Part shown: in pieces, positions 17,166-21,079 of the stretch
Position numbering within the stretch: the first letter of the stretch is position 1
How the letters are laid out: each line of letters begins with the position of its first letter
Assembly: GCF_013342145.1 (NCBI RefSeq)
Contig: NZ_JABUQZ010000001.1
Location: forward strand, 372,001 to 436,000
Reading direction: 5' to 3'
Length of the DNA: 64,000 nt
DNA from: Haloterrigena gelatinilytica
GTDB lineage: Archaea > Halobacteriota > Halobacteria > Halobacteriales > Natrialbaceae
Notes under the pieces: model-generated
What the model saw: the letters and a program-made list of their open reading frames with translations, nothing else
Databases searched by the model: none
What the model was told of the DNA's origin: nothing
Program-made: the position numbers and the translations under genes

Positions 17166-17930
17166 TCAGAAGATTCCGAGAATGAACGTCAGTCCCATGC
17201 CCACCAGCACCGTCGCCGTCAGCAACGGCAGGTACGGCGTGTACCGGTCGACCGTTTCGCGGTGGCGTTCGTAGCCCGCGATCAAGAGGAGCGTCGGAAT
17301 CAGGATCGCAACGATCACGACCAGCGAGTAAATCAGCATCAGTTCCAGGCAGTAGGCCGTCCCCGTACAGATCGCCAGAATCTGAATCGGCTCCTCGTGG
17401 GCGAACCCCAGCAGGAGGGCGGTCGTCCCGAGGGCCGTCAATCCTCGTTCAGCGTCTTCGTCGCTCAAATGACGATGCCCGCCGCCGAACAGTCGCTCCC
17501 GAATTCGGGTCAGTCTCCCGCGCTGGGAAGGGGTTTCCGAATGGTCGTGCTCGTGTGAGTGATCGTGTTCGTGAGTGTGTGTATGAGCGTGGTCGTGGTG
17601 TGGCTCATCGTGACCGTGACCGCGTCCCGACCCGTGTCCGCCGTTCCGATATTCGTGAATGCCCAGTAGAATGAGGATGACGCCTGCGAGATACCGCATC
17701 CACGGGCCTTCGGCGAATGCAGCGAAGCGACTGAACCAAAAGTACGCCACTACCAGTACGACGCTACTGATCAGATGTCCGACCCCGAGAACGAGTCCTG
17801 CTACCGTCCCGTAGAGCCACGTCCGCGAGCGATTCAACCCGTAGGTCGCAGCGATCGGCCACCCGTGATCCGGGAGCACGCCGTGGATAAATCCGATCGT
17901 AACGACACCTGCAACGAGACCGAAATCCAT
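17166..17930 (-). CDS. NicO-type nickel/cobalt transporter
   Basis: 254-residue membrane protein with about six helices. The first helix carries HGVLPDH (His16, Asp21, His22), the H-x4-D-H pattern of the nickel/cobalt NicO and NiCoT families. A cytoplasmic or loop segment at about residues 97-138 is very rich in histidine (HDEPHHDHAHTHTHEHDHSHEHDH), which is typical for RcnA-like metal exporters and NicO importers. Another conserved helix contains LLGFAHEEPIQILAICTG. I use ATG 17930; the longer frame adds 14 residues. A NikR-like gene lies divergently 126 bp away, which supports nickel or cobalt as the substrate. Direction of transport is not shown. Confidence 0.82.
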   Translation of the reverse strand: MDFGLVAGVVTIGFIHGVLPDHGWPIAATYGLNRSRTWLYGTVAGLVLGVGHLISSVVLVVAYFWFSRFAAFAEGPWMRYLAGVILILLGIHEYRNGGHGSGRGHGHDEPHHDHAHTHTHEHDHSHEHDHSETPSQRGRLTRIRERLFGGGHRHLSDEDAERGLTALGTTALLLGFAHEEPIQILAICTGTAYCLELMLIYSLVVIVAILIPTLLLIAGYERHRETVDRYTPYLPLLTATVLVGMGLTFILGIF

Positions 17931-18004
17931 GCGGAATTCTCGGGAGAGACGGCACAAAAACCCTGTTAGCACCGATTGGAGGGGATCGTAATACCCCGGT
18001 CAGC

Positions 18005-18056: not shown

Positions 18057-18443
18057 ATGCGTACCAGTTTCAATATTCCGGACGACTTACTCGCGGAGTT
18101 CGATCAGACGTGGCAGACCGAGGAGTTCGACTCCCGCTCGCGAGCAGTTCGGGAAGCGATGCAGGAGTACATCGAGGCCCACACCGAACTCGAGACCGTC
18201 TCGGGCGAAGTGACCGCTGCGCTCGCGTTCGATTATCAACACGAGCGCGTGATCCGCGAACTCCACGGCGTGCAACACGATTTCCAGGACGTGATTACGA
18301 CGACGAGCCACACGCACGAAGGCGATTGGTGTCTGGAAACGATTTTCTGTCGCGGCGAGGCGGCCCGCGTTCGCAAACTCGTGTATCGACTCCGAGATTT
18401 CGACGCCGTGGGACAGGTGAAAGTCCTGTTACTTCGGTCGTGA
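18057..18443 (+). CDS. NikR-like nickel-responsive regulator
   Basis: 128 residues. N-terminal ribbon-helix-helix domain (residues 1-48: RTSFNIPDDLLAEFDQTW, then SRSRAVREAMQEYIE). C-terminal ACT-like metal-binding domain. Against E. coli NikR the ligands His76, His87, His89 and Cys95 correspond to His74, His85, His87 and Cys92. The first three keep the exact spacing, but the Cys is one residue closer (HTHEGDWC). It is divergent from the NicO transporter gene and probably represses it when nickel is bound. I leave the symbol blank because of the shifted cysteine and unknown metal. Confidence 0.85.
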   Translation: MRTSFNIPDDLLAEFDQTWQTEEFDSRSRAVREAMQEYIEAHTELETVSGEVTAALAFDYQHERVIRELHGVQHDFQDVITTTSHTHEGDWCLETIFCRGEAARVRKLVYRLRDFDAVGQVKVLLLRS

Positions 18444-18674: not shown

Positions 18675-19199
18675 ATGTGCGCGTCGGCAGAATACACCCC
18701 GCTCGACGAGACGGATCGGAAAATCCTCCAACTCCTACAGCGCGACGCGCGGAACAAGACCGCGGTCGAAATCGGGGAGCGGATCGGCGTTTCGGACGGC
18801 ACCGTTCGGAACCGCATCAGAAACCTCGAGCAACGGGGGATCATCGAAGGCTACGTTCCGATCATCAACTACGAGGAAGCCGGCTATCAACTCGAGATCC
18901 GCATCACGTGTACGTCCCGGATCATCAACCGACAGGAACTGGCGAACGAGGCGCTCCAGATAGAAGGCGTGGTCGAAGTAGAGGAGTTGATGACCGGTCG
19001 CGAGAACATCGAGGTGACGGCGGTGGCGCCGAAACACGACGACGTAACGCGCATCGCCCAGACGCTCGATACGCTCGGACTCCAGGTGGAGAGCGAGGAA
19101 CTCATCCGGCACCACTACTTTCGACCGTTCAATCACTTCGGGAGCGAATCCGTGGCCGACGACGAGAGCGAGTCGGACGCGAACCACGAACTGTCCTGA
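18675..19199 (+). CDS. Lrp/AsnC-family transcriptional regulator
   Basis: 174 residues. An N-terminal winged helix (about 8-60: LDETDRKILQLLQRDARNKTAVEI and SDGTVRNRIRNLEQRGII) and a C-terminal RAM/AsnC ligand-binding domain (about 70-150, with VVEVEELMTGRENIEVTAVA). The tail after residue 155 is acidic. No amino-acid gene is adjacent, so the ligand and target are unknown. The 231-bp gap before it has no gene. A strong inverted repeat (19243-19283) follows the stop. Confidence 0.9.
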   Translation: MCASAEYTPLDETDRKILQLLQRDARNKTAVEIGERIGVSDGTVRNRIRNLEQRGIIEGYVPIINYEEAGYQLEIRITCTSRIINRQELANEALQIEGVVEVEELMTGRENIEVTAVAPKHDDVTRIAQTLDTLGLQVESEELIRHHYFRPFNHFGSESVADDESESDANHELS

Positions 19200-19242
19200 G
19201 CGAGTCACCAGCGTCGGGTTTTGACGATCGTAACGCAATGAG

Positions 19243-19283
19243 ATTTAGATAATCGAATCCGATATAGCTTCGATAATCTAAAT
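19243..19283. promoter_or_regulatory. 15-bp-arm inverted repeat, candidate operator
   Basis: Arms ATTTAGATAATCGAA (19243-19257) and TTCGATAATCTAAAT (19269-19283) are complementary at 14 of 15 positions with an 11-nt spacer. The block is AT-rich inside a GC-rich region and lies between the Lrp gene and the next small gene, 72 bp before its ATG. A dimeric regulator, perhaps the Lrp protein encoded just upstream, is the natural candidate (inference). Confidence 0.6.
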
Positions 19284-19326
19284 ACCTGCGCCAGTTCGGT
19301 ACGAGAATAGAAGCTCTCAGGAAGAG

Positions 19327-19333
19327 TTTATAA
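19327..19333 (+). promoter_or_regulatory. TATA box for a leaderless transcript
   Basis: TTTATAA lies 23-29 nt before the ATG at 19356, the spacing expected for leaderless haloarchaeal transcripts. It supports that start codon. Confidence 0.55.
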
Positions 19334-19355: not shown

Positions 19356-19619
19356 ATGGAACGTAGCCAGCACGCGATCACTCATCCCGTTGGAGAGCAG
19401 TTTTCGCTGGTCACCGACACCGATCTGTTGGAATTCCTTCTGCGTTATCGGACTATCGAACCGGGCGCTCTCGAGGCGGCTATCGACGGAACGAGTGCAG
19501 GAACGATGTCCCCCGAATGTTCGGGCGACGCCGGTACCGGCGCACCTGGCAGTACCGTTCGCGTGTCTGCGGAGATCACTGACCAGTTAGCTCGAGTAGA
19601 GCCGGCGAGAGGAAGCTGA
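19356..19619 (+). CDS. small hypothetical protein
   Basis: 87 residues, not recognised. The N-terminal half has a folded look (FSLVTDTDLLEFLLRYRTI), the C-terminal half is Gly/Thr/Ser rich with a single Cys (residue 54) and ends with VRVSAEITDQLARVEPARGS. No membrane segment or signal peptide. A TATA box at the right distance and a 15-bp inverted repeat upstream suggest an expressed, regulated gene. The next gene, a 43-residue zinc-ribbon protein, starts 11 bp after its stop, so the two probably form an operon. Confidence 0.55.
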   Translation: MERSQHAITHPVGEQFSLVTDTDLLEFLLRYRTIEPGALEAAIDGTSAGTMSPECSGDAGTGAPGSTVRVSAEITDQLARVEPARGS

Positions 19620-19630
19620 TTGACGGTCGT

Positions 19631-19762
19631 ATGGACACGTACATCGAGTGCGACGAGTGCGGCTTCGTGCTCCTCTCTGAGAGCGCTTCCGAACCGCTCC
19701 CGAAGCGGGTTGATTCGTGCCCCGGCTGTGGCGGAACGAGTTTTCGATTCACCATGGGCTAA
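19631..19762 (+). CDS. 43-residue zinc-ribbon microprotein
   Basis: Translates to a complete 43-residue protein beginning MDTYIECDECGFVLLSES and ending PGCGGTSFRFTMG. Two CxxC pairs are visible: Cys7/Cys10 (CDEC) and Cys30/Cys33 (CPGC), which would bind one zinc. It is one of the very short CPxCG-related zinc-finger proteins common in haloarchaea, several of which affect stress or biofilm traits (family knowledge). It is 11 bp downstream of the preceding small gene on the same strand. Function unknown. Confidence 0.75.
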   Translation: MDTYIECDECGFVLLSESASEPLPKRVDSCPGCGGTSFRFTMG

Positions 19763-20137: not shown

Positions 20138-21079
20138 ATGCCTGCCGGTGAGGTCGAATCACCGTTCGCGCCGGTCCTCGATATCGATTCGACCGCGAGT
20201 CTCCGGGTCGACTGTTACGTTCGGGGGAGCGTTCCGCCGGCCATCACGGCGACCATCGACGACGTCGTCGAGCGGCTCCGAGACCTCGACGAACGTGACG
20301 TGATCGACGACCACCGGGTGACCCACTGGCCGCCCGAGTACCGCTCGGCCGCCGGATCGACCGGCGAAAACGGGTCGACCCGCGACGAACTCGTCGCCGA
20401 GTTCGAACGCTGGGCCGCCCGGAAGGGCCACTCGCTCGAGCCGGCGTTTCGCCGACAGGCGGTTCCGCCGTCGCCGTTCGACGCCGACCTCGACGAGCCG
20501 CGCGAGCGAGTTCGGGTTCCGGTCGTCGCGCTGGCGATCCGAGGTCGAGTGGCGGACGCGACGGTCGTGGACGCCGTCGACGCGGACGCAGCGTCGATTC
20601 GAGGGGTCGTCCCCTATACGGAACGACCGTCGGCGGAGCGGTCGCGGACGTACACCGTCAACGACCTGCTCGCGACCGTCGAAGCGAACGGAAACGGCGT
20701 TCACCTGGGGACGCGCCAACGCGAGGGGCCGACGCCGCTGGGGGCCGCCACCTCGCTCGAGCCGGCGTTTCGCCGACAGGCGGTTCCGCCGTCGCCGTTC
20801 GACGCCGACCTCGACGAGCCGCGCGAGCGAGTTCGGGTTCCGGTCGTCGCGCTGGCGATCTCCGAGGTCGAGGCGGACGCGACGGTCGCGGACGCCGTCG
20901 ACGCGGACGCAGCGTCGATTCGAGGGGTCGTCCCCTATACGGAACGACCGTCGGCGGAGCGGTCGCGGACGTACACCGTCAACGACCTGCTCGCGACCGT
21001 CGAAGCGGAAACGGCGTTCACCTGGGGACGCGCCAACGCGAGGGCGCTCGAGAACTCGGGCGGTACGGCGCGACCGTGA
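20138..21079 (+). CDS. HTH-domain haloarchaeal protein with duplicated C-terminal half
   Basis: 313 residues. The start (MPAGEVESPFAPVLDIDSTA) and the segment DCYVRGSVPPAITATIDDVV with RLRDLDERDVIDD match my memory of a haloarchaeal HTH family of about 180-200 residues. The C-terminal half (LEPAFRRQAVPPSPFDADL through YTVNDLLATVEA) occurs twice, at residues about 98-187 and 207-291, because the DNA is tandemly duplicated. Indels between the copies change the end: copy 1 reads on as NGNGVHLGTRQREGP, copy 2 as ETAFTWGRANARALENS. The original gene probably ended near the first copy, so the present frame is a fused and possibly non-functional product. It ends inside the damaged fabG gene. Confidence 0.6.
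   Translation: MPAGEVESPFAPVLDIDSTASLRVDCYVRGSVPPAITATIDDVVERLRDLDERDVIDDHRVTHWPPEYRSAAGSTGENGSTRDELVAEFERWAARKGHSLEPAFRRQAVPPSPFDADLDEPRERVRVPVVALAIRGRVADATVVDAVDADAASIRGVVPYTERPSAERSRTYTVNDLLATVEANGNGVHLGTRQREGPTPLGAATSLEPAFRRQAVPPSPFDADLDEPRERVRVPVVALAISEVEADATVADAVDADAASIRGVVPYTERPSAERSRTYTVNDLLATVEAETAFTWGRANARALENSGGTARP
20431..21044 (+). repeat. tandem duplication of about 295 bp
   Basis: Copy 1 is 20431-20727 and copy 2 is 20752-21044, with 24 bp between. The copies are almost identical. The differences are a 2-nt gap and a 2-nt gain near 20540-20555 (which cancel out), one substitution, and a 4-nt difference near 20688. The unit spans the C-terminal part of the HTH gene and the first bases of the broken fabG. 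The near identity implies a recent event. Confidence 0.9.

Follow-up and report, generated by a model that had tools for sequence, protein, structure and literature searches.

A decaying, genus-restricted Haloterrigena cassette with a putative Lrp-type operator, and a recurrent pairing of Lrp and HalOD1 genes

Overview

An AT-rich inverted repeat lies between a gene for an Lrp/AsnC-type regulator and two small genes in the window (the whole 64-kb stretch of Haloterrigena gelatinilytica DNA that was analysed). With a probability of about 0.5, the repeat is an Lrp-type operator belonging to a genus-restricted cassette, made up of the Lrp gene and a unit for a HalOD1-like protein and a zinc-ribbon microprotein, which is decaying. 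The repeat, the order of the genes, their homologies, the lesions in related genomes and the recurrence of Lrp-HalOD1 pairs are directly observed. Taken alone, the repeat is a minor element that does not last long, and the part worth following is the recurrent pair of Lrp and HalOD1 genes that this locus brought to light, rather than the trio of genes found in the window.

Structure of the repeat and its promoter

The inverted repeat occupies positions 19243-19283 and consists of a left arm, ATTTAGATAATCGAA, and a right arm, TTCGATAATCTAAAT, of 15 nt each, with one mismatch between them and a spacer of 11 nt. It starts 43 nt past the stop of the Lrp gene (19199) and ends 43 nt ahead of the sequence TTTATAA. 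A repeat finder run at default settings reported no inverted repeat at this place, presumably since the mismatch interrupts every stretch that could serve as an exact 9-nt seed, and the repeat was recovered by a separate scan of the window. When repeats were defined by arms of 15 nt, at most one mismatch and a spacer of at most 20, the window was found to hold two of such quality, and the other one is not AT-rich. In 20 mononucleotide-shuffled versions of the window there were 6 matches, nested matches being counted separately, and dinucleotide shuffles (n=100) gave 41 such repeats, none of them with at least 60% AT. Shuffling of the 156-nt intergenic stretch produced such a repeat in 2 of 5000 cases. 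The repeat is real and unlikely by chance, and the re-scan bears out its arms, mismatch and spacer as given in the preliminary description. The Lrp gene (18675-19199), the 87-codon open reading frame (19356-19619) and the 43-codon open reading frame with its CxxC and CPGC motifs (19631-19762) are likewise all present.

Downstream of the repeat, a BRE-like GAAGAG and a TATA box, TTTATAA (19327-19333), form a putative leaderless promoter on the plus strand (19321-19333). The TATA box is correctly spaced for a start at 19356, and the earlier placement of the repeat upstream of a candidate leaderless promoter is upheld. Six genomes of the genus were compared, designated G000 (the window's own) to G005, one of which is Haloterrigena salina, taken as G001 (JCM 13891). 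G001, G002 and G003 each show 2 differences in the 19-nt block around the BRE and TATA elements. On the other side of the repeat, TTTT at 19219-19222 (plus strand) follows the Lrp stop, is kept in G001-G003 and may be a short-T terminator.

Each arm of the repeat is itself a 13-bp near-palindrome of the pattern TTNGATNATCNAA, namely TTAGATAATCGAA at 19245-19257 in the left arm and TTCGATAATCTAA at 19269-19281 in the right arm, the two centres lying 24 bp apart. A possible third and degenerate site, GAGAATA at 19303-19309, is placed 31 bp from the second dyad and about 12 bp before the BRE, and its aligned counterpart in G001-G003 is GATAATA; like the repeat and its dyads it is given without a strand. 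Archaeal Lrp dimers bind clustered 13-bp AT-centred palindromes, activator sites are located immediately upstream of the BRE, and the site spacings reported correspond to two or three helical turns (PMC2995911). In Halobacterium, the motifs of FFRPs combine a high AT content with a conserved CG (PMC4236453), and binding of LrpA1 is abolished when its inverted repeat is mutated (PMC2894021). The nearest known systems are these archaeal Lrp/FFRP operators, including the FL11 13-bp site, the Ptr2 paired upstream sites and the autoregulatory repeat of Halobacterium LrpA1. The window shares with them its clustered 13-bp AT-centred near-palindromes (two TTNGATNATCNAA sites), the BRE/TATA downstream and an Lrp gene nearby (PMC2995911, PMC2894021). 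It differs from them in the spacing of its centres, which at 24 bp, or 31 bp to the weak third site, is neither two nor three helical turns, and in that an intact Lrp gene and the repeat do not co-occur in its relatives; binding at the window's repeat is putative. Spacing aside, the arm dyads appear to be a good match to sites of the Lrp (feast/famine) family.

The window's genome holds three perfect TTNGATNATCNAA sites, of which two are the repeat arms, a number too small for the paired site to define a regulon across the genome, and that reading was rejected. Single TTNGATNATCNAA sites are present in 33 of the 61 genomes searched, and one site alone is therefore uninformative. CTA and TAG words are rare in haloarchaea, so that the reversed-pattern control for the TTNGATNATCNAA search is probably biased. 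When as many as 3 mismatches were allowed, the paired motif was found in 3 of the 61 genomes, all of this genus. A pattern covering the variants of G000-G003 occurred at one place, in H. salina, in a public scan of 84,980 species genomes from which the window's own and very near genomes were possibly excluded.

Genes of the locus

The gene at 18675-19199 (plus strand) encodes a 174-residue Lrp/AsnC-type regulator with an AsnC-type winged helix-turn-helix (PF13404, 51.6 bits against a cut-off of 27). The C-terminal RAM domain (AsnC_trans_reg) is not among the best 25 of 29 matches listed. Residues 10-131 align with the NCBIfam LysM profile at 52 bits, the cut-off of that profile being far higher (180). 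The neighbouring gene at 18057-18443 encodes a NikR-type regulator and is divergent from a membrane-protein gene (17166-17972, minus strand), the product of which has a His-rich loop and a weak similarity to nickel/cobalt efflux transporters that is below the family cut-off.

The 87-residue protein (19356-19619, plus strand) has no match in Pfam or NCBIfam, and the curated cut-off of HalOD1 (PF18545) is not reached. One of the four members of its family matches HalOD1 with an E-value of 0.023, and when hhalign was used to compare the family of four with a HalOD1 profile derived from 29 sequences, the E-value was 7.9e-6, the probability 65% and the score 31.0, whereas column-shuffled controls (n=60) scored at most 15.8. 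Columns 4-72 were aligned to columns 1-75, and the profile-profile similarity runs along the HalOD1 domain. The AlphaFold model of the protein was unusable (mean pLDDT 42). To call this protein unknown, as had been done before, was too strong, since the hhalign result and the one family member point to HalOD1; it is most likely a degenerate HalOD1 domain, and on the profile match and its position is named HalOD1-like rather than a member of HalOD1, as it does not reach the curated cut-off. It is similar to stand-alone HalOD1 proteins in its length, its domain-wide profile similarity and its place behind an Lrp gene, which paralogous pairs share, but unlike them the window copy is under the curated cut-off and weakly constrained. 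Stand-alone HalOD1 copies are found in nearly all halobacterial genomes, with 49 in Haloterrigena turkmenica (PMC5847659).

The 43-residue zinc-ribbon microprotein (CDEC...CPGC; 19631-19762, plus strand) is encoded 11 nt past the 87-codon open reading frame and matches no Pfam or NCBIfam family above its cut-off. Like haloarchaeal C(P)XCG zinc-finger microproteins (PMC11241148) and the Brz protein of the bop cluster (PMC2253796), it is shorter than 70 residues and has two CxxC-type motifs; Brz adjoins the gene under its control (PMC2253796). The window's zinc ribbon differs from these in having no family match over the cut-off, and zinc binding and regulation by it are putative. Further downstream, about 300 nt of an HTH_63-type open reading frame (20427-20727) are tandemly repeated at 20747-21044 with 96.7% identity. 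G001-G004 are apparently single-copy for this stretch, and the tandem arrangement (20427-21044) is either a recent duplication or an assembly artefact.

State of the locus in related genomes

Among the six genomes of the genus, the window's is the sole one in which the repeat, the Lrp gene and both small genes are intact. G001 and G002 retain the repeat and both small genes, the 87-codon gene at 64 and 68% identity and the zinc ribbon at 95%, and their Lrp gene is a pseudogene with a common 1-nt deletion near its end plus further lesions; in G001 the left dyad of the repeat is also imperfect. In G003 the Lrp gene (91%) and the zinc ribbon are intact, the 87-codon gene is down to 46 codons, and the long symmetry of the repeat is broken, each arm still being similar to the 13-bp site. 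In G004 only 45 nt separate the NikR gene from the gene for a relative of the 87-residue protein (39-44% identical), so that the Lrp gene and the repeat are absent there, and the zinc ribbon is without an ATG and without the second Cys pair. In G005 nothing matches the stretch of the locus.

The preliminary description had proposed that regulator, operator and two microproteins may be a small undescribed regulatory module. What stands of this is the order of a regulator, an operator-like element and a two-gene unit, together with the recurrence of the repeat and the small genes in two congeners. A conserved set of regulator, repeat and microproteins is contradicted by the dead Lrp gene of G001 and G002, by the damage to both the symmetry and the 87-codon gene in G003, and by the state of G004 and G005. 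Moreover, conservation of the repeat, which had been set beforehand as a test, goes no further than three of the six Haloterrigena genomes. The three genes thus do not form a conserved, undescribed module.

Constraint, proposed mechanism and alternatives

In comparison with G001 and G002, 4 and 2 of the 30 arm positions have changed, as have 6 of the 11 spacer positions and 14 of 118 in the remaining intergenic DNA. Change is slower in the arms than in the spacer (p 0.013 and 0.002 for G001 and G002, respectively), but their difference from the remaining intergenic DNA is not significant (Fisher p 0.71 and 0.33). In comparison with G003, the arms (4/30) are significantly more conserved than the rest (38/118; p 0.03), but not significantly so than the spacer (4/11; p 0.12). 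The 87-codon gene shows dN/dS values of 0.73 (G001) and 0.63 (G002), with a range of 0.63-0.83 over three comparisons, whereas the NikR gene next door shows 0.06-0.10 in five comparisons and zero non-synonymous changes in the sixth. The loosening is not locus-wide: the intact Lrp copies of the window and G003 are constrained (dN/dS 0.09), as is the zinc ribbon (0.15-0.21 in three comparisons with G003). The zinc-ribbon gene (19631-19762) also has dS values of 0 and 0.035 against G001 and G002, compared with 0.27 and 0.23 for NikR, and this near-zero synonymous change may reflect either recombination or constraint at the DNA level.

In the proposed explanation, the locus would be one genus-restricted instance of a pair that recurs in haloarchaea, in which a stand-alone HalOD1 gene comes after an Lrp/AsnC regulator, and to which a zinc-ribbon microprotein was added here. 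The repeat would be an operator in which two 13-bp dyads of Lrp type are joined, perhaps, by a weak third near the BRE. We infer that an Lrp-family protein, originally the product of the neighbouring gene, binds there as linked dimers upstream of BRE/TATA, and that the bound Lrp controls transcription of the leaderless HalOD1-like/zinc-ribbon unit. Given the upstream position of the repeat, activation via TBP recruitment would fit better than repression. Several observations speak against the reading as an Lrp operator: the repeat is kept in G001 and G002 beside a dead Lrp gene, G003 has an intact Lrp gene without the long symmetry, the arms are no slower than their flanks in the comparisons with G001 and G002, the left dyad of G001 is imperfect, the spacing is 24 bp, and GATNATC was found in none of 15 other Lrp-HalOD1 stretches, several of which are orthologous to each other.

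The survival of the repeat in G001 and G002, despite the deletion and further lesions which these genomes have in the adjacent Lrp gene, would be expected if the repeat were the operator of another regulator, whether a paralogue of Lrp or an HTH protein of a different family, and the genome does hold 15 more Lrp/AsnC genes above the cut-off. However, there is a single further perfect TTNGATNATCNAA site in the genome, which fits a local regulator, and G001 and G002 differ from each other at 2 of 30 arm positions and 6 of 118 other intergenic positions and so give no sign of constraint after the death of the Lrp gene. Control by another regulator is on balance improbable. It is unlikely, too, that the repeat is a relic or a chance symmetry without present function in a decaying locus. 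This would agree with the finding that none of the four parts (Lrp gene, 87-codon gene, zinc ribbon and repeat) is present and whole in all six genomes, each being damaged, truncated or absent somewhere, with the high dN/dS of the 87-codon gene relative to NikR, and with arms that are no slower than their flanks against G001 and G002; but a long AT-rich symmetry is rare by chance, and the arms have changed less than the spacer in both of these comparisons.

A function as RNA, in which the repeat would fold into a hairpin that terminates the Lrp mRNA or determines the form of its 3' end, is very improbable. The RNA strand of the window folds at -11.6 kcal/mol (z -2.5), and the repeat is close behind the Lrp stop (43 nt), but the T run that would follow it is absent, TTTT sitting ahead of the repeat instead, and of the two stretches folded, that of the window and its equivalent in G003, the latter is without such a fold (z -0.2) despite its intact Lrp gene, for which reason this reading was disfavoured.

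A recurrent pairing of Lrp and HalOD1 genes

The window's genome contains 33 HalOD1 matches, 30 loci of which were scanned for neighbours, and 16 AsnC-type HTH genes above the Pfam cut-off. A bona fide HalOD1 gene directly follows the Lrp/AsnC gene in 5 of these 16 cases, on the same strand and 85-180 nt downstream (match to match), compared with a chance expectation within 300 nt of about 0.02 (16 x 33 x 300 / (2 x 4,552,005)). The window's Lrp gene is among the 16 but not the 5, its downstream same-strand open reading frame being only HalOD1-like. Among 30 retrieved Lrp loci, which include the window's own and its G002 and G003 orthologues, a HalOD1 neighbour is present within 220 nt in 9, several of these nine being orthologous to each other; in one further locus (L007) less than 100 nt of DNA lies past the Lrp gene and the neighbour is not observable. 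When 42 Lrp proteins were placed in a tree, that of the window fell within a clade of 13 rows (96/93). This tree omits the broken Lrp of G002 (L003), the G001 locus (L018) and L205, L206, L219 and L220, which are the weakest Lrp-profile matches among the genome's 16 AsnC-type genes. When the window and G003 are set aside, 7 of the 11 remaining rows of the clade have a HalOD1 neighbour, and this spread across the clade suggests that the Lrp-HalOD1 pair is probably older than the window's locus.

The zinc ribbon and the repeat fare differently. Outside the genus, a HalOD1 gene adjoins the zinc-ribbon gene in 2 of 8 loci (L066 and L071; both strands scanned), and in the window's genome all 5 Lrp-HalOD1 pairs stand without a neighbouring zinc-ribbon match; the zinc ribbon is therefore no regular part of the pair. 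In L071 (G036, 346-1629), a regulator that we take to be HTH_10-like, a HalOD1 gene and a zinc-ribbon gene stand in a row, which places a small HalOD1/zinc-ribbon pair like the window's behind another type of regulator. The repeat as a common feature of Lrp-HalOD1 pairs was rejected, GATNATC being absent from the 15 other stretches. One of these stretches, L008, has a perfect 8-nt arm pair that starts within the Lrp coding sequence, and in L004 (G031), the locus of a 55% identical Lrp, an AT-rich palindrome, GAATATATATTC, is situated in the gap between the Lrp and HalOD1 genes.

No description of the Lrp-HalOD1 pairing was found in the papers searched, which covered few subscription journals. 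Among the papers that mention HalOD1, AsnC turns up in a single one, where it concerns a different domain, and Lrp is absent from the others whose text was searched. CsmR, an Lrp/AsnC-like regulator of Haloferax, was described in 2026 in an article that leaves HalOD1 unmentioned (PMC13286277), and DdfA, a HalOD1 protein, has been linked to cell shape (PMC10869688). It can be suggested, tentatively, that stand-alone HalOD1 proteins are dedicated partners of Lrp regulators, controlling them or controlled by them, and that in some cases a zinc-ribbon microprotein joins the two.

In the sister species compared here, the order of decay varies among a regulator, the operator presumed to belong to it and the presumed target genes. 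HalOD1 is a very numerous small domain of haloarchaea which is linked to signalling by its name, and for which no mechanism was seen. Its recurrent pairing with Lrp regulators would offer a testable handle on this domain.
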